Of a stretch of DNA of 64,000 bases, positions 5,624 through 14,141 are shown one piece after another. The notes below the pieces were generated by a model that saw only the letters and a list, made by a program, of their open reading frames with translations, was not told where the DNA came from and made no database searches. Source of the DNA: Arenimonas terrae. Lineage in GTDB: Bacteria > Pseudomonadota > Gammaproteobacteria > Xanthomonadales > Xanthomonadaceae. A program made the translations under genes and the position numbers. Within the stretch, counting starts at the first letter, position 1; every line of letters starts with the position of its first letter. The DNA lies in NCBI RefSeq assembly GCF_006265115.1, contig NZ_SMDR01000005.1:62001-126000 (forward strand), written 5' to 3'.

Positions 5624-6382
5624 TCAGAAGCGGTAGCTGAGGCCGACGCGGAAGGTGTCGAAGTCCACGTCCTGGCGGAACGACTCGGTATAGGCCGGCG
5701 AGACGAAGGTGCTTCCGGGCAGGTAGGCGGTGTCGAAGCGCAGCTCGTCCAGGTCGGTGGCCAGGTATTCGGCGCGCAGCGACCAGCGGTTGCCGAAGTC
5801 GTATTCGTAGCCCGCGCCCCAGACGCTGCCGTCGAGCGTGTCGGAACGGCGCCCCGCCTTGAGGTAGCCGCCGTTGCTGGCGACCGTGGCCACCGCTTCG
5901 GCGTCCACCTGGGTCCAGCCGCCGGTGACGAAGAACAGGTGCCGGCCGCTGGCGTAGCCGAAGCGGGCGCGCAGCGAGGCCTGGTCCTCGAGCTCGATGC
6001 GGTTGCCGAAGTCGTAGGCCAGGGACGGGATCGCCGGCACCGGCACCGAGCCGGTGGCACGCGCGTCGTCGATGTTGAGCTGGTTGTAGTCGAGTTCGGC
6101 GCCCAGCACGAAGCCGTTGCCGAACTGGTGGTTGTAGCCGAACTGCAGGCCGTAGGCGCTGCCGCTCGGGTCGAGGTCGTTGGACCAGTTGCCGGTGACG
6201 TGGTCGCGCAGGGCCTGCGATTCGATGCTCCATTGGCCGCCGAGGCTGACGCGCGCGTCGGAGCTGCCGCTGCCGTGGCCGGCGTGGGCGCCGAGGTACC
6301 AGCCGGTCCAGTCGTCGCCGGCGGCCAGGGCGGGCGCGCTGAGCAGGCAGCAGGCGGCAAGGAGCGAAATGCGCTTGAACAT
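5624..6382 (-). CDS. Outer-membrane beta-barrel (porin/Omp25-like) protein
   Basis: 252 residues. A signal peptide (MFKRISLLAACCLLSAPALAA) is followed by GDDWTGWYLGAHAGHGSG, the standard opening of small eight-stranded outer-membrane proteins of the Omp25/RopB/OmpA-barrel type. The end, DFDTFRVGLSYRF, has the terminal Phe that marks barrel insertion. There is no OmpA peptidoglycan domain. The start at 6382 was chosen because the signal peptide begins there and AAAAGG lies just upstream; the same frame is open for over 1 kb further upstream, but that extension overlaps the response regulator in another frame. It lies 191 bp downstream of the LytTR regulator gene on the same strand, perhaps with its own promoter. 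Likely structural or adhesion-related; no specific role is visible. Confidence 0.82.
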   Translation of the reverse strand: MFKRISLLAACCLLSAPALAAGDDWTGWYLGAHAGHGSGSSDARVSLGGQWSIESQALRDHVTGNWSNDLDPSGSAYGLQFGYNHQFGNGFVLGAELDYNQLNIDDARATGSVPVPAIPSLAYDFGNRIELEDQASLRARFGYASGRHLFFVTGGWTQVDAEAVATVASNGGYLKAGRRSDTLDGSVWGAGYEYDFGNRWSLRAEYLATDLDELRFDTAYLPGSTFVSPAYTESFRQDVDFDTFRVGLSYRF

Positions 6383-6573: not shown

Positions 6574-7320
6574 TTACGAGGGCGACTTCTGACGCCCGAC
6601 CAGGGCCAGCACCCGGTCGCGGAAGTTGCGACCGCTCTGCACGCGGCCGCCGCCATGCAGTTCGATGCGGAAGCGCCCCGAACCCACGGGACGGATCTCG
6701 CGGATGGCGCCGATGCGCACGATCAGCGAGCGGTGCAGGCGCATGAATCGTGCGGGGTCGAGCTCGGCCTCGAACGAGGCCAGGGTGCGCCGGACGACGT
6801 AGCAGCGTTCGGCGGCGCGGATTTCCAGATAGTTGCCCTGCGCCTCGACGGTGTCGATCTGGTCCACGGGCACCAGCTGGATGCGGCGCCCGACCGGCAG
6901 CGGCAGCGTGTCGGAGGGGCGCGGCATCGGTGCGCCCGCCGCATCCGCGCCGGCGAGGGACTGGCGCAGGCGGTCGATCGTCTCGCGAAGGCGGTCGGCC
7001 GACACCGGCTTGAGCAGATAGTCGACCGCGTGCACGTCGAAGGCGCGCGCCGCGTGCTCCTGGTAGCCGGTGACGAAGACCACGCGCGGACGCGGCGCCG
7101 GCCAGCGCTCCAGCGCCGAAAAACCGTCGCCGCCGGGCATCCGGATGTCGAGGAAGAGAACGTCCAGCGGCCCCAGCGGCGCGGCGGCCAGCAGTTCGTC
7201 GACGTTGGCGCAGTCCAGCGCGACCACCACCGAATCGCCGGCGACCTGGGCGAGCAGGCGCTGCAGGCGCGCGCGCGCCAGCGGCTCGTCGTCGACGATG
7301 GCGACCTGCAGCGGCTTCAT
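6574..7320 (-). CDS. LytTR-family response regulator
   Basis: 248 residues. An N-terminal receiver domain (VAIVDDEPLARARL, acidic pocket; phosphoacceptor Asp at about residue 58 in FLDIRMPGGDGF; switch Thr/Tyr in VFVTGYQEHAARAF) is followed by a LytTR DNA-binding domain at about 140-245 (NYLEIRAAERCYVVRRTL, FMRLHRSLIVRIGAIREI). Members bind pairs of direct repeats. Its ATG overlaps the stop of the kinase gene by four bases (ATGA), so the two are translationally coupled. A candidate direct-repeat binding site lies upstream of the kinase gene. Target genes are unknown; the nearby barrel gene is a possible one, though no second repeat pair was found in front of it. Confidence 0.92.
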   Translation of the reverse strand: MKPLQVAIVDDEPLARARLQRLLAQVAGDSVVVALDCANVDELLAAAPLGPLDVLFLDIRMPGGDGFSALERWPAPRPRVVFVTGYQEHAARAFDVHAVDYLLKPVSADRLRETIDRLRQSLAGADAAGAPMPRPSDTLPLPVGRRIQLVPVDQIDTVEAQGNYLEIRAAERCYVVRRTLASFEAELDPARFMRLHRSLIVRIGAIREIRPVGSGRFRIELHGGGRVQSGRNFRDRVLALVGRQKSPS

Positions 7321-8429
7321 GCCGCCGTCTCCGGTGTGCGCGGCGCGGGCCTGGCGTGGCCCTCGGGCAGCGGCAGCGCGAGCTCGACACGGTACAGGCC
7401 GTCCTGCTGAACCTGCCGCAATCGCGCCTGGTCGCCGTGCAGCATCTGCAGCCGTTCGCGCGTGGCGCCCAGGCCGGTGCCGGAACCGGGCGCAGCCGGG
7501 CCATCGGGTCCGGCGGTGTTCTCGATCTCGATCTGCAGTTCATCGGCGTGCAGCCGCGCCCGCAGGTCCAGCCGGCCCGGTTCGCGGCGGCGCGCGATGG
7601 CGTGCACGATCGCGTTCTCCACCAGCGGCTGCAGGATCAGGGTCGGCACCGGCACGGGCAGGCAGGACGGGTCGATCGCCCAGCCGACCTGCAGGCGTTC
7701 GCCGAGGCGGATCTTCTCGATCTGCAGGTAGTGTTCGACCAGAGCGACCTCGTCGCGCAGCGGGCGCTGCTGCGGCATGTCGGGGCGCAGGCTCACGCGC
7801 AGCAGTTCGGCCAGCGAGACCAGCATGCGGTCGGCCACGTCCGGGTCGCGGTGCACCATTTCGGCCACCGAGTTGAGCGCGTTGAACAGGAAGTGCGGAT
7901 CCAGGCGCGCGCGCAGGGCTTCGAGCCGCGCCAGCGCGAGTTTGGTCTCGAGCTCGGCGATTCGGCTGGCATCGGCACGCACCCGCCGCGACTGCACGAT
8001 CGCCTGCGCCACGCCCACCAGCAGCCAGGTGGTGACCGAGTTGTAGGCGGCGCTGGTCATCAGCAGCAGGCGCACCGACGGCGGCGACGGATACCAGCCC
8101 AGCACCGGGTCGGTGGCCCAGACGAACAGCGCACGGCCCAGCACCACCGCGGTCACCACCGCGCAGTGCACCAGGACCCAGCGCAGCAGCGAAGCCTGTC
8201 GGCGGTGCAGGCGTTCGGCCAGCCAGACCAGGAACAGCGTGATGCCGATCCAGACCAGTGCGCTGGCGGTTTCCTGCGCCAGGCGCAGCATCACGCCGCG
8301 GTCCTGGTCGGGCGGGCCCCAGTACTGGGTGGCGCGGAACACCGCGTTGGCCAGCCACGCCATCGCCACCCAGGCCCAGAGCGGCAGGGAGAGGCCGGGC
8401 GATGGAGCGGGAGCCGGGGCGGCGTTCAT
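7317..8429 (-). CDS. LytS/YehU-type sensor histidine kinase
   Basis: 370 residues. Four hydrophobic segments (about 15-33, 51-69, 82-102, 122-145) form the membrane part, with no periplasmic sensor domain of note. A short coiled segment leads into the His_kinase motif LDPHFLFNALNSVAEMV (phospho-His near residue 180). The ATPase part has the N box LILQPLVENAIVHAI and G box GSGTGLGATRERLQML. The start at 8429 was chosen because the signal-anchor begins there; an upstream extension in the same frame runs back through the neighbouring gene and is not credible. It forms an operon with the LytTR regulator. The pair resembles the YehU/YehT and AlgZ/AlgR systems. The signal is unknown. Confidence 0.9.
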   Translation of the reverse strand: MNAAPAPAPSPGLSLPLWAWVAMAWLANAVFRATQYWGPPDQDRGVMLRLAQETASALVWIGITLFLVWLAERLHRRQASLLRWVLVHCAVVTAVVLGRALFVWATDPVLGWYPSPPSVRLLLMTSAAYNSVTTWLLVGVAQAIVQSRRVRADASRIAELETKLALARLEALRARLDPHFLFNALNSVAEMVHRDPDVADRMLVSLAELLRVSLRPDMPQQRPLRDEVALVEHYLQIEKIRLGERLQVGWAIDPSCLPVPVPTLILQPLVENAIVHAIARRREPGRLDLRARLHADELQIEIENTAGPDGPAAPGSGTGLGATRERLQMLHGDQARLRQVQQDGLYRVELALPLPEGHARPAPRTPETAA

Positions 8430-8493
8430 GGGCAGGGACGGCGGAAGGACGCCGCCAGTGTCGCATGGGCTCCGGGGCTGGTCGCTCGCGGGG

Positions 8494-8523
8494 GCCAACG
8501 GCACCCATGCGTATGCGAACGGC
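8494..8523 (-). promoter_or_regulatory. Candidate LytTR-regulator binding site (direct repeat, 21-bp period)
   Basis: On the minus strand two nine-base half-sites, GCCGTTCGC and GCCGTTGGC, start exactly 21 bases apart (12-base spacer), 65 bp before the kinase start codon. The LytTR consensus is two copies of [TA][AC][CA]GTTN[AG][TG] with that spacing; each half here fits seven of nine positions. Autoregulation of the two-component operon is inferred. Confidence 0.5.
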
Positions 8524-8554
8524 ATCGCACCGGACGCGCGGCGCTGTCCGCCGC

Positions 8555-9028
8555 TCAGTCGGCCGCCTCCTCCGGCAGGCGCGTGTTCTGGTCGAACACC
8601 AGTCGCCATTGCCCCGCTTCGCAGCCGAAGCCCATCGAAAGCCAGGACGAGCGCGGTGCCGAGGACGGCGTCGCCCGGAAGCTGGACTTCAGTGCCACCA
8701 GGGTCATCGACGGGGTCGAGATTCGCGACACTTCCTCGAAGCGCATGCGCCACGACCGGTCGCGGAAGAACGCGCGGTGGAAACGCAGGTAGGCTTCGCG
8801 GGTGTCGGTCCGCACGCCGTCGGGAAGGATGAGCACCAGCGCCGCGCCGCGCGTGACGGTGGCTTCGATGCCCGGCAGGTCCCGCGCCTGGATCGCGGCC
8901 AGGTGCCGCGAGATGGTTTCGTCGGGCGAGCCGCAGGGGCCTGGCGCGGCGTGCGCCAGGCCGAGCGGCAGAAATCCGGTCAGCATCAGTCCGAGCAACC
9001 CTGCACCCGGTGTCGTTCGTCCATCCAT
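8555..9028 (-). CDS. Secreted NTF2-like (SnoaL/DUF4440-type) protein
   Basis: 157 residues. A signal peptide (about residues 1-28, ending GLAHA) is followed by an NTF2-like cone fold: the helix DETISRHLAAIQARDLPGIE, then strands that end in WRLVFDQNTRLPE. Families with this fold bind small ligands or act as isomerases, and no catalytic Asp-Tyr pair can be assigned here. The start at 9028 was chosen over an in-frame ATG 54 bases upstream because the signal peptide begins at this Met and GGAG sits seven bases before it. It is divergent from the XRE regulator across a 173-bp gap that contains a perfect palindrome, so that regulator may control it. Function unknown. Confidence 0.7.
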   Translation of the reverse strand: MDGRTTPGAGLLGLMLTGFLPLGLAHAAPGPCGSPDETISRHLAAIQARDLPGIEATVTRGAALVLILPDGVRTDTREAYLRFHRAFFRDRSWRMRFEEVSRISTPSMTLVALKSSFRATPSSAPRSSWLSMGFGCEAGQWRLVFDQNTRLPEEAAD

Positions 9029-9100
9029 CGGCGGTCTCCGTTGTTCGTGGCCATGGCAGCAGCCGGGGGCCCGCGCGAACAACTACCTCGTGGGTAATTG

Positions 9101-9117
9101 GCGGCGCAGTGCGCCGC
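9101..9117. promoter_or_regulatory. Perfect 17-bp palindrome in the NTF2/XRE divergent gap
   Basis: GCGGCGCA-G-TGCGCCGC is a perfect odd palindrome midway between the two divergent genes. It lies 38 bp before a good -10-like box (TAGAAT, 9155-9160) for the XRE gene. A dimeric helix-turn-helix regulator could bind it. Its GC richness means a chance palindrome cannot be excluded. Confidence 0.4.
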
Positions 9118-9201
9118 ATCGAGTCTTGACGCCCGCCTGCCCGCGCCCGATGGGTAGAATCGTGCCCAGTGCCGGCGTCCGAAGGCCGCGGGTGATCCGA
9201 C

Positions 9202-10014
9202 ATGAACGACAAGACCAGCCCCGCCGGGCTTCCCTCACACCTGCGGACGATGCGGACAACGCTCGGGGTATCGCAGATGGAGCTGGCGTTCCGTCTCGGC
9301 ATTTCGCAGCGCCACCTGAGCTTCGTCGAGCGCGGCCGCGCCAAGCCCAGCCGCGATCTGGTGCTGCGCTGGGCGCGCGAGACGGGCGCATCCACGGAAG
9401 ACCGCAACGCGGCGCTGCTCAGCGCCGGCTTCGCGCCCGCCTTCCGCGAGTTCGGTGCCGGGCACGTGCGCGAAACGCCGGGCTTCAAGGCGCTGTCGGA
9501 GATGCTGGTCGCGCACGAACCGCATCCGGGCATCGTGTTCAACGCCGACTGGATGATCGTCGCGATGACCGAGGGTGGGCAGTGGCTTTGCCGGGTCGGC
9601 ATGGCCGACTTCCTGGCGTCGATGTCCGGCCCGCTGTCGCAGATGGACATGATCGCCGCGCTGACGCATCCGGGCGGCATGCTCAGCTGCGTGCGCAACG
9701 CGCCGGAAGTGGGGTTTGCGCTGCTGCGCCAGCTCCGCTCCGAGCAGCTGGCGCGGCCGTCGCTGGGGCCGCGGGTCGATGCCCTGGAGGAATCGCTGCT
9801 GCGGCGCTACGGCGACGACTGCGCCGAACGGCCCCGTTCCGCGGGCGATCCGTATCTTCGCGTGGTCATGGACACCGCCTGGGGGCCGCTGTCTTTCCTG
9901 CTGGTGCAGACCGTGTTCGGTCTTCCACACAGCATCTCCCCGGCATCGCTGCGCACCGAGCTCTGGTTCCCGACCGATCCGCATACCCGGCGGGTGATGG
10001 CGGCCAGCGGCTGA
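9202..10014 (+). CDS. XRE-family regulator with MmyB-like ligand-binding domain
   Basis: 270 residues. The N-terminal helix-turn-helix (about 10-65: RTMRTTLGVSQMELAFRLGISQ, then RHLSFVERGRAKPSRDLVLRWA) is of the Cro/CI-XRE type. The following about 190 residues match the MmyB-like domain layout, with HPGIVFNADWMIVAMTEG near residue 111 and a hydrophobic pocket thought in this family to bind fatty acids or related small molecules. Family members act mostly as local repressors or activators of short-chain dehydrogenase or hydrolase genes, and no such gene lies immediately beside this one. A -10-like TAGAAT sits 41 bp upstream. The neighbours are the divergent NTF2-like gene and an amidohydrolase 113 bp downstream on the same strand. 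Confidence 0.85.
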   Translation: MNDKTSPAGLPSHLRTMRTTLGVSQMELAFRLGISQRHLSFVERGRAKPSRDLVLRWARETGASTEDRNAALLSAGFAPAFREFGAGHVRETPGFKALSEMLVAHEPHPGIVFNADWMIVAMTEGGQWLCRVGMADFLASMSGPLSQMDMIAALTHPGGMLSCVRNAPEVGFALLRQLRSEQLARPSLGPRVDALEESLLRRYGDDCAERPRSAGDPYLRVVMDTAWGPLSFLLVQTVFGLPHSISPASLRTELWFPTDPHTRRVMAASG

Positions 10015-10127
10015 TCCGGACTGCCGCCGTCATGCCGGCGGTTACCTGGAACGGAATTGAGGCGGCGGCGACGCGCGGCTAGTCTGCCCGCATCGCGCCG
10101 CCGCACGGCGCCCGGACGGGAGCAGCC

Positions 10128-10979
10128 ATGAATCTTCGCGCCCATGCCCTGTGGATGGGGGCCTGCATGCTGGCGCCAGGGATCGCCTGCGCCGGTGAAC
10201 CGGTGTTCGACGTCCATGTGCACCTGCGCGACGGCGAGGCCTCGCTTCAGCGCTACCGCGACGAGGCGGCCGCCGCCGGGAGGCCGCTCGATGGCCTGGC
10301 CGCGATGTGGTTCGGCGGACCGAACCAGGCGCGTGCGGGCGACCCGGCGGCGATACGCGCCGGCAATGACGGCGTCCTCGACCTCGCGTCGGAGCATCGC
10401 GACGTGCTGCCCGTGGTGACCGTGCATCCCTACGACGGACCGGCGGCGCTGGACGAACTGGCGCGGGTGGCGGCGCGCGGCGCGCGGCTGCTGAAGCTGC
10501 ATCCGCACACCCAGGGTTTCGATCTGGACGATCCGCGCGTGCTGCCGGTGGTGCGGCGCGCGGGCGAGCTGGGGCTGCGCGTGCTGCTGGACAACGCGGG
10601 TATCGTGCCGGGCGACAACGAGCGGTTGTTCAACCTGGCGGCACAGGTGCCGGGCACGACCTTCATCTTCGCGCACATCGGCGGCCTGAACTTCCGCTAC
10701 TGGAACCTGCTGGCGCTGGCCCGCACCGCCGACGGCTTCGCGCTGGACAACGTCTGGTTCGACCTTTCCGCCACGGTGCTGCTGGCGGCCGATTCGCCGG
10801 TCGAGGCGGAGTTCGTATGGACGCTGCGCAACGTCGGCATCGACCGCGTGCTGGTCGGGTCGGACTATCCGCAGATCGGCCTGGACCGGACCCTGGACGC
10901 GCTGGAGCGGCTGGACCTGGACGACGAAGAAAAGGCGAAGCTGCGCTCGGGGAACGCGCGGCGCCTGTTCGGGCGCTAG
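10128..10979 (+). CDS. Exported amidohydrolase-family metal hydrolase
   Basis: 283 residues. A signal peptide (MNLRAHALWMGACMLAPGIACA) is followed by a TIM-barrel of the amidohydrolase-2 group. The first metal-binding pair is in FDVHVHLRDG (H-x-H near residue 28); later come LLKLHPHTQGF, the conserved IFAHIGG and the metal Asp region VGSDYPQIG near the end. Members hydrolyse or decarboxylate cyclic or lactone-like substrates, and the substrate here cannot be deduced. A TAGTCT box about 42 bp upstream is a possible -10. The gene ends just where the first copy of the tRNA-linked repeat begins. Confidence is high for the superfamily and low for the reaction. Confidence 0.82.
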   Translation: MNLRAHALWMGACMLAPGIACAGEPVFDVHVHLRDGEASLQRYRDEAAAAGRPLDGLAAMWFGGPNQARAGDPAAIRAGNDGVLDLASEHRDVLPVVTVHPYDGPAALDELARVAARGARLLKLHPHTQGFDLDDPRVLPVVRRAGELGLRVLLDNAGIVPGDNERLFNLAAQVPGTTFIFAHIGGLNFRYWNLLALARTADGFALDNVWFDLSATVLLAADSPVEAEFVWTLRNVGIDRVLVGSDYPQIGLDRTLDALERLDLDDEEKAKLRSGNARRLFGR

Positions 10980-11036
10980 GCCGACCGGGAATCCCGAACC
11001 CGGACTCCCGTTGGGAAGGATGGCGCGCCTGGAGGG
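10978..11036. repeat. 59-bp direct repeat, copy 1 (contains tRNA-Arg 3' end sequence)
   Basis: Base-for-base identical to copy 2, 115 bp away. Its last 16 bases equal the 3' end of the adjacent tRNA-Arg gene, including the CCA. It overlaps the final bases of the amidohydrolase gene. Confidence 0.9.
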
Positions 11037-11041
11037 TCGAG

Positions 11042-11076
11042 CGTTCGACGCTGTGGACCGCAGGTCCAGTCGAACG
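11042..11076. other. Hairpin between the two direct repeats
   Basis: CGTTCGAC pairs with GTCGAACG around an inner stem TGGACC-GCA-GGTCCA, with a four-base bulge (GCTG) on one side. It fills most of the 56-bp spacer between the repeats. There is no T tract on either side, so it is not a standard intrinsic terminator. It could be a remnant of a tRNA-targeting element or a processing signal in the tRNA trailer. Confidence 0.6.
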
Positions 11077-11092
11077 TGAGGGGGAGGCCGTC

Positions 11093-11151
11093 AGGCCGAC
11101 CGGGAATCCCGAACCCGGACTCCCGTTGGGAAGGATGGCGCGCCTGGAGGG
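11093..11151. repeat. 59-bp direct repeat, copy 2 (overlaps tRNA-Arg 3' end)
   Basis: Second copy of the repeat. It overlaps the last 16 bases of tRNA-Arg, the usual position of an integrase attachment site. No integrase gene lies nearby. Confidence 0.9.
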
Positions 11152-11212
11152 ATTCGAACCCCCGACCAATGGCTTCGGAAGCCACTACTCTATCCGGCTG
11201 AGCTACAGGCGC
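11136..11212 (-). tRNA. tRNA-Arg (anticodon CCG)
   Basis: A full cloverleaf on the minus strand: acceptor GCGCCTG with CAGGCGC, discriminator G and encoded CCA; D arm GCTC..GAGT; anticodon stem GTGGC with GCCAT around loop TTCCGAA, so the anticodon is CCG, reading CGG codons (frequent in this genome); T arm GGGGG-TTCGAAT-CCCTC. It is 77 nt with CCA. The 3' end lies inside a 59-bp direct repeat. Confidence 0.96.
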
Positions 11213-11222
11213 GCGGCCCGGC

Positions 11223-11251
11223 ATTATGTCATTGAAGTCCGTCACGGTCTA
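11223..11251 (-). promoter_or_regulatory. Promoter of tRNA-Arg
   Basis: On the minus strand TAGACC (-35, 11251-11246), a 17-bp spacer and CATAAT (-10, 11228-11223) predict a start about four bases before the mature tRNA 5' end. Confidence 0.55.
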
Positions 11252-11363: not shown

Positions 11364-14141
11364 ATGGACGCCGCCTTCCTGACCAGCCTGCTGCAACACC
11401 CGTCCCGGCACGCCCTGCTGGCGCTGGATGCCGCCGGCCGGCTGCTGGCCGCCAACGACCGGGCCCGCGAACTGGTCACCCCGAGCCTGGAGGCGGAGCT
11501 GCGCCAGGTGCTGGCCGGCGCCATGGCCCAGCTGGCCGCCAATCCCGACCGGCAGGTCCAGCACCGCCACCGCAGCGAGGGCGTCGAGATCGACTGCGTG
11601 CTGTTGGCCGCCCGCGACGCCGAGGGCGACCTGCAGGGCTACACCGTCAGCCTGCTGGCGGTGGACGAGGCCCCGGACCTGGCCGAATCGCCCGACCGCG
11701 CCCGCTGGCGTTTCGCGCTGGAGAACGCACAGGACGGCCTGTGGGACTGGAGCGCCGATACCGGCAAGGTCTACCGGTCCAGCCGCTGCATGAGCATGCT
11801 TGGTTACCCGCGCGACCACCTGAGCGATGAACTCGACAGCTGGCGCAGCATGGTGCACCCCGACGACCAGGCCCGCGTCGCCGAGGCGCTCGAGAACCAC
11901 ATCGCCGGCCGCCACCCCAAGTACCAGTCCGAATACCGGGTGCGCGACGCGCGCGGCCGCTGGCGCTGGATCCTCGACCGCGGCCGGGTGATCGCCTGGA
12001 CCCTGGAGGGCCGGCCGCGCCGCGTCATCGGCACCCATACCGACATCACCGGCTACAAGCAGATCGAGGCGCAGCTGCGCGAGCGCGAAGTGCTGCTCAA
12101 CCAGGCCCAGCACGTCGCCCGCATCGGCAGCTGGAGCTGGGACCCGGAGACCGACAGCCTGTGGTGGTCGGACGAACTGTTCCTGATCGCCGGGCTGCCG
12201 GCGGGCGCGCCCCCGCCGCCGTTCCGGCGCCAGCGCGCGCTGTTCGAACCGGCCTCGTACGAGCGCCTGCAGGACGCGTCGCGGCGCATGCTCGAGGACG
12301 GCTCGCCCTACGACATGGAGCTGGTGATGCTGCGCCCGGACGGCGAACGCCGGACCGTGGCGGCGCGCGGCGAGGGCATCTTCGGCGCCGACGGCCGCGT
12401 CACCCGGCTGGTCGGCGTGATCCACGACGTCACCGAGCGCAACCGCGCCGAGGAAACCTCGCGCTGGCGCAACGACCTGCTCAACCGCATCGCCGCGGTC
12501 GGCCGCATCGGCGGCTTCGAGCTGCTGGTCGAAACCGGCGAGCTGCAGTGGACCGACGAGAACTACCGCATCCACGGCATCGAGCCGGGCACGCCGCTGA
12601 CGGTGGCCAGCTCGATGCAGCACTACGAAGAGGAGTCGCGGCCGCGGCTGCTCGAGGCGATGCGCCGCATGATCGAGGACGGCGTCGCCGAGCAGACGCT
12701 GGAGGTGGGCTACATCACGCCGGACGAGCGCCGGCTGTGGCTGCGCATCATGGCCCGGCTGGAGCTGCGCGACGGCCGGCCCTACCGCATCACCGGCCTC
12801 ACCCAGGACATCACCGAGGAACACGAGGCCGACGAACGCATCGAGCAGCTGGCGCACTACGACACCCTCACCGGCCTGCCCAACCGTTTCCTGTTCCGCC
12901 TGCGCGCCGAGGATGCCATCGGCCAGGTGCGCAACGGCGAGCCGCCGCTGGCCCTGCTGTTCCTGGACCTGGACCGCTTCAAGCTGGTCAACGACACGCT
13001 CGGCCACGCCGCCGGCGACCAGCTGCTGCAGGAAGTGGCGGGGCGCATCAAGAGCTGCGTGCGCGGCAGCGACCTGGTCGGCCGGCTCGGCGGCGACGAG
13101 TTCCTGGTGCTGTTGCGGGAAGTGGGCCGGCCGGAGGACGCGTCGGTGGTGGCGCGCAAGATCATCGCCGCGCTCGGCCTGCCGGTGGACCTGGCCGGCA
13201 CCGAGGTGCAGGTCGGCTGCAGCATCGGCATCGCACTGCTGGGCGACGGCAACCCGGACCTGGACGCGCTGCTGCGTGCCGCCGACACCGCGATGTACGC
13301 GGCCAAGGAAGGCGGCCGCAACAGCTTCCAGTTCTACAACGACAGCTTCTTCGAGAAGGTGCAGCGGCGCGTGACGCTGGAGCAGGAGCTGCGCCAGGCG
13401 CTGCCACGCGGCGAGCTGAGCCTGGTCTACCAGCCGACCGTCTGCCTGCGCCACGGCAACGTCACCGGCATCGAGGCCCTGCTGCGCTGGCAGGGGCCGG
13501 ACGGCAGCCTGCGCTCGCCGGTGGAGTTCATCCCGATCGCCGAGGACAGCGGCGAGATCCTGGCGATCGGCCGCTGGGTGCTGGCCGAAGCCTGCCGGCA
13601 GGCCGGCGCCTGGCACGAGGCCGGCCTGCAGTTCGGGCGGATCGCGGTGAACGTGTCGGCGGTGCAGCTGCGCGACCCGCAGTTCGCCGACGACGTGCTG
13701 GCGATCTGCCAGCGTTACCGCTGGCCTACCGACCGGCTGGAGCTGGAGCTGACGGAGTCCGCGCTGATGCGCGACACCGAGGTGCTGCGGCGCGCGTTCG
13801 ACCTGTTCGCCGCCAACGGCATCACGCTGGCGGTGGACGACTTCGGCACCGGCTTCTCCAACCTCGCTTACCTGCACCGCTTCCCGGTGCGGCACCTGAA
13901 GATCGACCGCAGCTTCGTGCAGCAGCTCTCGGGCGACGGCGAGCGCATGCGCGGCCTGACCCAGGCGGTGGTGACCCTGGGGCACGCGCTGGGCATGGCC
14001 GTGGTCGCCGAGGGCGTGGAGACGGAAATCACGTTGGACCTGCTGCGCCAGCAGGGCTGCGACGAGGCGCAGGGATACCTGTTCACCCGGCCGCTCGCGC
14101 CGGAGCAGCTGGAAACCTGGCTGCGGGTGCAGCCAGGTTGA
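11364..14141 (+). CDS. PAS-GGDEF-EAL protein (cyclic-di-GMP synthesis/breakdown)
   Basis: 925 residues, cytosolic. After a short divergent N-terminal PAS-like part come three PAS/PAC units (about 110-235, 240-360, 375-495). A GGDEF domain follows, with an intact active site GRLGGDEFLVLL near residue 576 and an RxxD inhibitory site (RGSD) five residues before it. An EAL domain comes last, with EALLRW near 702, NVSAVQL, ELTES, DDFGTG, KIDRSFV and EGVET all present. Both enzymatic activities are therefore possible, one making and the other degrading cyclic-di-GMP under PAS control. Which dominates cannot be read from sequence. The start has AAGGAG five bases upstream. It stands alone, 151 bp after tRNA-Arg. 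Likely targets are motility, biofilm or exopolysaccharide. Confidence 0.95.
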   Translation: MDAAFLTSLLQHPSRHALLALDAAGRLLAANDRARELVTPSLEAELRQVLAGAMAQLAANPDRQVQHRHRSEGVEIDCVLLAARDAEGDLQGYTVSLLAVDEAPDLAESPDRARWRFALENAQDGLWDWSADTGKVYRSSRCMSMLGYPRDHLSDELDSWRSMVHPDDQARVAEALENHIAGRHPKYQSEYRVRDARGRWRWILDRGRVIAWTLEGRPRRVIGTHTDITGYKQIEAQLREREVLLNQAQHVARIGSWSWDPETDSLWWSDELFLIAGLPAGAPPPPFRRQRALFEPASYERLQDASRRMLEDGSPYDMELVMLRPDGERRTVAARGEGIFGADGRVTRLVGVIHDVTERNRAEETSRWRNDLLNRIAAVGRIGGFELLVETGELQWTDENYRIHGIEPGTPLTVASSMQHYEEESRPRLLEAMRRMIEDGVAEQTLEVGYITPDERRLWLRIMARLELRDGRPYRITGLTQDITEEHEADERIEQLAHYDTLTGLPNRFLFRLRAEDAIGQVRNGEPPLALLFLDLDRFKLVNDTLGHAAGDQLLQEVAGRIKSCVRGSDLVGRLGGDEFLVLLREVGRPEDASVVARKIIAALGLPVDLAGTEVQVGCSIGIALLGDGNPDLDALLRAADTAMYAAKEGGRNSFQFYNDSFFEKVQRRVTLEQELRQALPRGELSLVYQPTVCLRHGNVTGIEALLRWQGPDGSLRSPVEFIPIAEDSGEILAIGRWVLAEACRQAGAWHEAGLQFGRIAVNVSAVQLRDPQFADDVLAICQRYRWPTDRLELELTESALMRDTEVLRRAFDLFAANGITLAVDDFGTGFSNLAYLHRFPVRHLKIDRSFVQQLSGDGERMRGLTQAVVTLGHALGMAVVAEGVETEITLDLLRQQGCDEAQGYLFTRPLAPEQLETWLRVQPG

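Follow-up and report, generated by a model that had tools for sequence, protein, structure and literature searches.

The closest described counterpart of the locus analysed here is the RtT RNA (RF00391; rttR) of the Escherichia coli K-12 tyrT-tyrV locus, which served as our control and whose role, to our knowledge, is still unsettled. Knowledge of this RNA in E. coli goes back to 1991 (Bosl and Kersten, as cited in PMC4986893), and RtT RNAs have been detected on published Northern blots. PMC7657543 mentions a tandem GA motif in RtT, and a paper on Salmonella Paratyphi A and Typhi lists a 175-bp VNTR in the rtT RNA among insertions and deletions (PMC2658671). In a limited search, the available parts of these three sources (PMC4986893, PMC7657543, PMC2658671) held no statement that such units, at different tRNAs, carry their own tRNA's tail together with a pairing anti-tail.

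At tyrTV we find four copies of a 203-nt repeat, with two steps of 178 nt and one, across tyrV, of 297. RF00391 matches the locus four times, each match ending at the CCA of a tail copy (a copy of the 3' end of the tRNA), and rttR as annotated also stops at such a CCA, that of the next tail copy (record position 1287066; tyrV ends at 1287244, a difference of 178). One and the same tail scan, applied to both loci, gives a repeat from -19 to +23 with a step of 178 in E. coli and from -16 to +43 with a step of 115 behind a tRNA-Arg(CCG) of Arenimonas terrae.

How general is this arrangement? Of 297 family genomes, 86 have an RF00391 match at E<=1, 11 of them over the cut-off; of 369 class genomes, 65 have one at E<=1e-3, 23 of them over the cut-off. 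We examined 99 of these loci, 59 returned with the searches and 40 taken from the remaining matches, 10 of them without a tRNA in the stretch. A copy of the last 18 nt of an upstream tRNA (<=3 mismatches) lies within 400 nt in 77 of the 99, against 1 of 1430 trials with shuffled downstream DNA, in which a copy at any place in the 400 nt was counted. In 76 of the 99 loci the 3' end of the copy lies no more than 5 nt from that of the RF00391 match, and in 73 the two coincide, figures to be read with the caution that the model itself ends in a tRNA-tail-like consensus, so that ending at some tail is partly built in. The identity of the tail with that of its own tRNA across hosts is not built into the model. 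The 76 tail-bearing loci, with steps of 117-203, stand behind tRNAs for Tyr (20), Ser(GGA) (20), Ser(CGA) (12), Gln(TTG) (10), Gln(CTG) (6), Ser(GCT) (5), Ser(TGA) (2) and Arg(CCG) (1).

Moreover, the segment before the GTTCGAC core of RtT units pairs with the tail copy. RNAalifold on a MAFFT alignment returned 13 pairs only, and we therefore tested this anti-tail by duplex energies, in 52 distinct units that were left of 64 loci after removal of 8 lacking a tail copy at 4 mismatches or a suitable tRNA, 1 without the motif and 3 duplicates. For 45 of the 52 (Tyr 17/17, Gln 12/13, Ser 16/22), pairing is stronger with the unit's own tail than, on average, with tails belonging to the other two amino acids, and none of 10000 permutations of the tails reached the observed sum, a count that is not an exact probability, the sequences being related. 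In a stricter version, where the own tail type has to be the best of five, it was so for Tyr 10/10, Gln 2/2, E. coli 1/1 and Ser 5/18, two of the Ser units being cut at the wrong place. Predicted folds close through the tail/anti-tail stem in several of the ten units that we folded.

The single Arg(CCG) host belongs to another gammaproteobacterium (genome G475, locus L317), where RtT units form a tandem array behind the tRNA in the order terminator hairpin, inverted copy of the tRNA T arm, GGTTCGAC, hairpins, tail copy, next unit. In locus L321, a tail-bearing unit with a step of 143 and a long inverted copy of the tRNA end stands behind tRNA-Arg(ACG); the RF00391 matches lie elsewhere in this locus, the Arg(ACG) unit itself not being reported at E<=1e-3. 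More units with inverted and direct copies of their own tRNA's end, as in L317 and L321, may thus escape the Rfam RtT model. We also observed that sX4 (RF02223) spans a tRNA-Ser and the first part of an RtT unit (L221 1360-1526, L206 1355-1526), so that RF02223 and RF00391 describe overlapping parts of a single type of locus.

The A. terrae locus was analysed within a window, the whole 64-kb stretch of DNA under study, that had previously been read from its letters alone. That sequence-only reading described two identical 59-bp copies 115 bp apart, both with the last 16 nt of tRNA-Arg(CCG), CCA included, and a bulged hairpin in the 56-bp spacer between them. Our analysis confirms the exact direct repeat, its coordinates and its start-to-start step of 115 (Table), as well as the tRNA, found by ARAGORN on the minus strand with its last 16 nt in both copies, and the hairpin, which spans 35 of the 56 bp of the spacer as 8+6 bp (14 bp) with a 3-nt loop and a 4-nt bulge. 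The tRNA part of the repeat is nt 62-77, that is, the 3' strand of the T-stem, the 3' strand of the acceptor, the discriminator and CCA. On the tRNA strand the order is tRNA, hairpin trailer, spacer hairpin, tail copy, trailer copy and the end of the amidohydrolase gene, whose stop codon (10977-10979) overlaps the far copy by two bases. The array thus amounts to 1.5 units in tandem, a second unit beginning after the tail copy.

Table. Features at the tRNA-Arg(CCG) locus of A. terrae, in window positions and listed in the reading direction of the tRNA.
Feature	Position	Strand	Remark
PAS-GGDEF-EAL gene	11364..14141	+	conserved upstream neighbour of the tRNA in 9 Arenimonas-type loci
promoter-like site of the tRNA, TAGACC-17-CATAAT	11223..11251	-	consensus scan 9/12, a likeness and not proof
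tRNA-Arg(CCG), CCA encoded	11136..11212	-	ARAGORN; Rfam RF00005, 67 bits
gene-side 59-bp copy	11093..11151	-	last 16 nt of the tRNA (11136-11151) and 43 nt of trailer (11093-11135)
trailer hairpin, 9 bp, 7-nt loop	11101..11125	-	without T-run
predicted unit or RNA of 115 nt, beginning behind the CCA of the tRNA and ending with that of the tail copy	11021..11135	-	putative, from comparison with E. coli rttR
spacer, 56 bp	11037..11092	-	not elsewhere in the genome; next best match E = 0.62, 15 nt
RtT-like core: CGTTCGAC and directly following bulged hairpin	11042..11076	-	
far 59-bp copy	10978..11036	-	tail copy (11021-11036) and trailer copy (10978-11020)
second copy of the 9-bp trailer hairpin, 7-nt loop	10986..11010	-	
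amidohydrolase gene (PF04909), convergent	10128..10979	+	stop codon overlaps the far copy

The 59-bp repeat is not due to chance: its 25-bp hairpin core, with <=3 mismatches, occurs twice in the 64-kb window and not at all in 100 shuffles. The segment 11037-11080 (44 nt) folds with a z of -2.8, none of 200 shuffles being as stable; the spacer folded as a whole stands out less (z -1.8; 11/200 shuffles as stable), and the trailer hairpins are ordinary for their G+C content (z -0.8 and -0.4). The genome search for the 59-bp unit at other tRNA genes, proposed along with the first description, placed the locus once in the genome: the 174-bp stretch has one match in the 3.31 Mb, the 25-bp core with <=3 mismatches has the two copies only, and the exact 16-nt tail stands only at the two copies, with a one-mismatch form at four more places. 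We also considered the repeat as a dispersed family within this genome and, from these searches, rejected the idea.

When we scanned the 45 tRNAs of A. terrae for copies of their last 18 nt (<=3 mismatches, <=400 nt downstream, outside tRNA genes), copies were found at Gln(CTG) and Arg(CCG), while tRNA-Val(TAC) has a chance-level match with 4/18 mismatches (shuffles 3/900). The same kind of copy occurred at none of 47 tRNAs in a relative (G003, a single contig, 86% complete) and at none of 20 other tRNA-Arg(CCG) loci of the genus, 3 of these 20 ending at or near a contig edge. The Gln(CTG) unit came to light in this mismatch-tolerant scan; it had escaped scans for exact tail matches from seeds of 11-12 nt, in one of which the match was too short.

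This unit behind tRNA-Gln(CTG) (G000:C1:1566881-1567012; L053 1782-1913 minus; step 168) has a terminator hairpin with a T-run first, a tail copy with 2/18 mismatches, and a visible anti-tail and hairpins. Its match, with E 0.026 in 137.5 kb, is little better than those to plain tRNA ends (0.068 and above), and we call it RtT-like on the strength of this match taken together with the position behind a tRNA and the tail copy, anti-tail and hairpins just named. In the genome-wide searches with RF00391 and with R1, an RtT model that we built for this analysis (R1 at E<=1), the A. terrae genome was not among the matches. With these elements, the Gln(CTG) unit is a fuller RtT-like unit than the Arg(CCG) unit of the same genome.

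How far does the Arg(CCG) unit itself resemble RtT? It follows a tRNA directly and finishes with a copy of the tail of this tRNA, and GTTCGAC, directly followed by a hairpin, stands at its centre. The combination GTTCG[AG]C plus a direct hairpin of at least 6 bp is present in 38 of 56 RtT units, as against 2 of 80 places of the motif on both strands of the window, one of the two being the Arg(CCG) spacer; by our arithmetic about 0.001 such GTTCGAC-plus-hairpin cores are expected in 115 nt, for a motif chosen after the sequences had been seen. RF00391 has no match to the Arg(CCG) unit, either at the gathering cut-off or at E<=5. The best score of R1 within the unit, in a run without filters, is 4.3 bits and lies on the strand opposite to the tRNA, where the tRNA strand has 0 bits; it is not significant. 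An anti-tail was not found in the unit, the shuffled segment pairing as well in 526 of 2000 trials (in 12 RtT units taken as controls, 0 to 156 of 500 shuffles were as good), nor were further hairpins between core and tail, for which there is no room, the tail copy following the core hairpin after 5 nt. Aligned to the Arg(CCG) RtT of L317, the unit gives no significant score (242/1000 shuffles as good), and 904/1000 are as good against the Arg(ACG) unit of L321; its mean alignment over the 56 RtT units is borderline (11/200). Against the E. coli unit 12/500 shuffles are as good, and a 10-nt identity with the E. coli unit, near the start of that unit, is equalled in length by 35/2000. We conclude that the Arenimonas Arg(CCG) unit is built like RtT and is probably a shortened relative; we do not claim membership in the family.

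The genes around the repeat were compared among relatives. The PAS-GGDEF-EAL gene is followed by ubiA in 9/9 Arenimonas-type loci and by comF in 8/9, and the contig JAIBEO010000080.1 (L075), from a metagenome-assembled genome that bears the name 'Rhizobium sp.', shows at this place the tRNA and gene order of Arenimonas and is probably misnamed. On the other side of the tRNA, an outer-membrane-protein gene adjoins it downstream in L076 and in A. malthae (L077), whereas in the window five genes (6574-10979) lie between the two: a LytTR response regulator, a histidine kinase, a DUF4440-like gene, an MmyB-type regulator and the amidohydrolase. The amidohydrolase has no match at E<=1e-20 in 8 other listed members of the genus and is present in 19 other family genomes of 198 searched. 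As a source of the repeat this gene was rejected, a search with the repeat region in the 19 other family loci giving at best one 29-nt match with E 0.10. At the far junction of the gene block, between the outer-membrane-protein and response-regulator genes, no spacer or repeat score rises above the 95% shuffle level; among 28 comparisons, one beat all its 100 shuffles, that of the repeat with the stretch from the tRNA to the GGDEF gene.

As the sequence-only reading had proposed, we looked for islands at tRNA-Arg(CCG) in relatives. Across species the search succeeded: a 94-bp probe for a conserved island end is found in 5 of 27 genus genomes (G001, G018, G010, G015, G008) and is absent from the A. 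terrae genome. In all five the ancestral gene position retains a 5' fragment of the tRNA (40-58 nt aligned), the intact tRNA beginning ~90 bp after the 42-nt form of this fragment, while 3' fragments of 46-48 nt lie elsewhere in G001 and G018, and G015 has a 3' fragment of 94% identity ~67 kb away on the same contig. The 42-nt 5' and the 48-nt 3' fragments overlap at tRNA positions 30-42, in the 13-nt GGCTTCCGAAGCC of the anticodon arm, and from these fragments we take the relatives' islands to cross over in that arm. In these five Arenimonas genomes the island seems to arrive with a complete tRNA gene in its conserved end that replaces the old one, which is split in the anticodon arm with its 5' part ~90 bp upstream and with displaced 3' parts in three of the genomes. 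Near the fragments are encoded, among others, a tyrosine recombinase (PF00589; in one genome), AbiEi/AbiEii, HipA and PRiA4_ORF3. Two side observations concern single islands. L030 1381-1760 (G010:C16) holds a decayed island tRNA, whose nt 1-42 are fused directly to its last 11 nt, CAGGCGCGCCA, behind the same conserved island-end sequence, and in L067 (G018:C32) two 46-nt 3' fragments of tRNA-Arg (6106-6151 and 8573-8618), 2.47 kb apart, enclose ORFs resembling the PRiA4_ORF3 and AbiEi/AbiEii of L066, a small toxin-antitoxin module.

With this background we can weigh the possible origins of the repeat. We favour, with moderate confidence, the explanation that the locus is an RtT-like tRNA-trailer unit, in which the tRNA is followed by a hairpin-rich stretch and a copy of its own tail (115 nt) and then by the start of a second unit; this confidence covers the layout and the processing reading, not a regulatory function. 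The layout, which is that of RtT units, agrees best with one of the three guesses in the sequence-only reading, a processing unit in the trailer. With no T-run terminator behind the tRNA, a transcript from its promoter would read on through the unit. Cuts by the tRNA 3'-trimming nucleases, one at the true CCA and one at the copied tail, would by analogy with rttR free a structured RNA of <=115 nt (11135-11021, minus) ending in CCA. The array would probably have grown by tandem duplication, helped by the hairpins, and the Arg(CCG) unit itself may be a shortened and diverged RtT. Could the duplication be all there is? A purely local tandem duplication of tRNA end and trailer, by replication slippage or template switching between hairpins, with neither RtT ancestry nor function, would account for the exact identity that includes 43 bp of trailer and suggests a recent local event, for the hairpins in both copies and in the spacer, and for a unit that is unique in the genome and unmatched by RtT models. 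We nevertheless regard it as rather unlikely, for it leaves unexplained both the ending in a tRNA tail, in which 76 of the 99 RtT loci are alike, and the GTTCGAC-plus-hairpin core. A terminator unit, as had also been suggested, might be read from the three hairpins, one in duplicate, that lie where the tRNA-Arg and amidohydrolase genes converge; it would be a doubled terminator working both ways. The scan, however, found no terminator-like site, and no G+C-rich hairpin followed by a T-run, as an intrinsic terminator would have, is seen at the locus, the longest T-run in the first 90 nt being 2, while many other tRNAs of this genome have both hairpin and T-run; such a two-way terminator we consider highly improbable.

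The remaining alternative is a mobile element. The tRNA gene is an island site in 5/27 genus genomes, one with a tyrosine recombinase, the copied tail starts exactly at the border of T-loop and T-stem, and Islander has 1836 islands with a site in the T region (PMC4383910). The two copies might thus be attL and attR of an integrative element at the tRNA 3' end, whose island has been lost except for 56 bp. Yet these 56 bp are all that lies between the copies, with no integrase and no island, and Islander itself discards candidates of <2 kb (PMC4383910). Nor is the repeat the crossover core of the relatives' islands, which use the anticodon arm and leave a 5' fragment; there is none at the A. terrae locus, where the search covered the 1.5 kb upstream, and the relatives' island-end sequence is likewise absent. 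Since there is no 5' fragment, the tail copy has 16 nt as against the 46-48 nt of the islands' 3' fragments, and identity runs 43 bp past the gene, the repeat is not a scar of the relatives' island type. More generally, the idea of an excised-element scar is not supported, in that excision would leave one copy, in addition to the identity beyond the gene and the missing island fragments and conserved end. The far gene-block junction shows no trace above the shuffle level given above, and an extension into the T-loop upstream of the tail copy is not significant (170/2000 shuffles as good). Phage or plasmid origin was considered and rejected, the best 20 of 66 phage records and the best 20 of 179 plasmid records covering <=33% of the query; the matches in these 20 listed records of each kind fall over the tRNA and a few adjoining bases, with <=9 bases of the trailer, and a 22-mer of the repeat is absent from viral contigs. 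We regard an element remnant as improbable; a mobile-element scar is a less likely reading than an odd RtT-like trailer. The case also cautions against taking every direct repeat at a tRNA 3' end for an attachment site.

The comparison shows that most of the examined RtT units finish with their own tRNA's tail, with a pairing segment that varies along with it (Tyr, Gln, Ser and one Arg). This own-tail rule offers a way to find units that sequence models miss, such as the Arg(CCG) unit of Arenimonas, and it provides a direct test of the part played by the copied tail in tRNA 3' processing. The further suggestion of a mini-element that targets tRNA ends survives in changed form: RtT units do stand behind several tRNAs, each with that tRNA's tail, while movement is hypothetical. 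We would tentatively propose, as an idea more doubtful than probable, that RtT units, the Arenimonas one included, are portable modules of tRNA 3' ends with inverted and direct copies of the host tRNA's end, re-tailored at each tRNA. Either selection acting on the closing stem or a copying process (duplication or transfer directed by the tRNA end) would fit them to their host. On this view the Arenimonas Arg(CCG) unit would be reduced to a minimum, its inverted copy lost.

Among known systems, the sX4 sRNA (RF02223) in L221 covers tRNA-Ser(CGA) and the start of an RtT unit; the tRNA is a different one, and sX4 has no match in the A. terrae window. With tRNA-targeting islands at Islander type J and A sites the locus shares a 3' fragment of the tRNA repeated downstream of the intact gene in direct orientation, but the A. 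terrae repeat comes without an integrase, measures 115 bp, is identical beyond the gene and has no fragment pair. The Arg(CCG) array of L317 has a step of 177, starts with a T-run terminator hairpin and has three more hairpins after the core; on the other hand, it involves the same isoacceptor in the same orientation, with tail plus trailer in tandem, and likewise GTTCGAC and a hairpin closed by an inverted copy of the motif. From the RtT RNA (rttR) of E. coli tyrT-tyrV and its kin, the Arg(CCG) unit differs in its step of 115, against 117-203, in having neither anti-tail nor hairpins after the core, and in being unmatched by the Rfam model or by R1. What it has in common with them is the position immediately after a tRNA whose tail is copied at the end of the unit, the tandem arrangement, a repeat identity that includes the trailer, and a central GTTCGAC followed by a hairpin.
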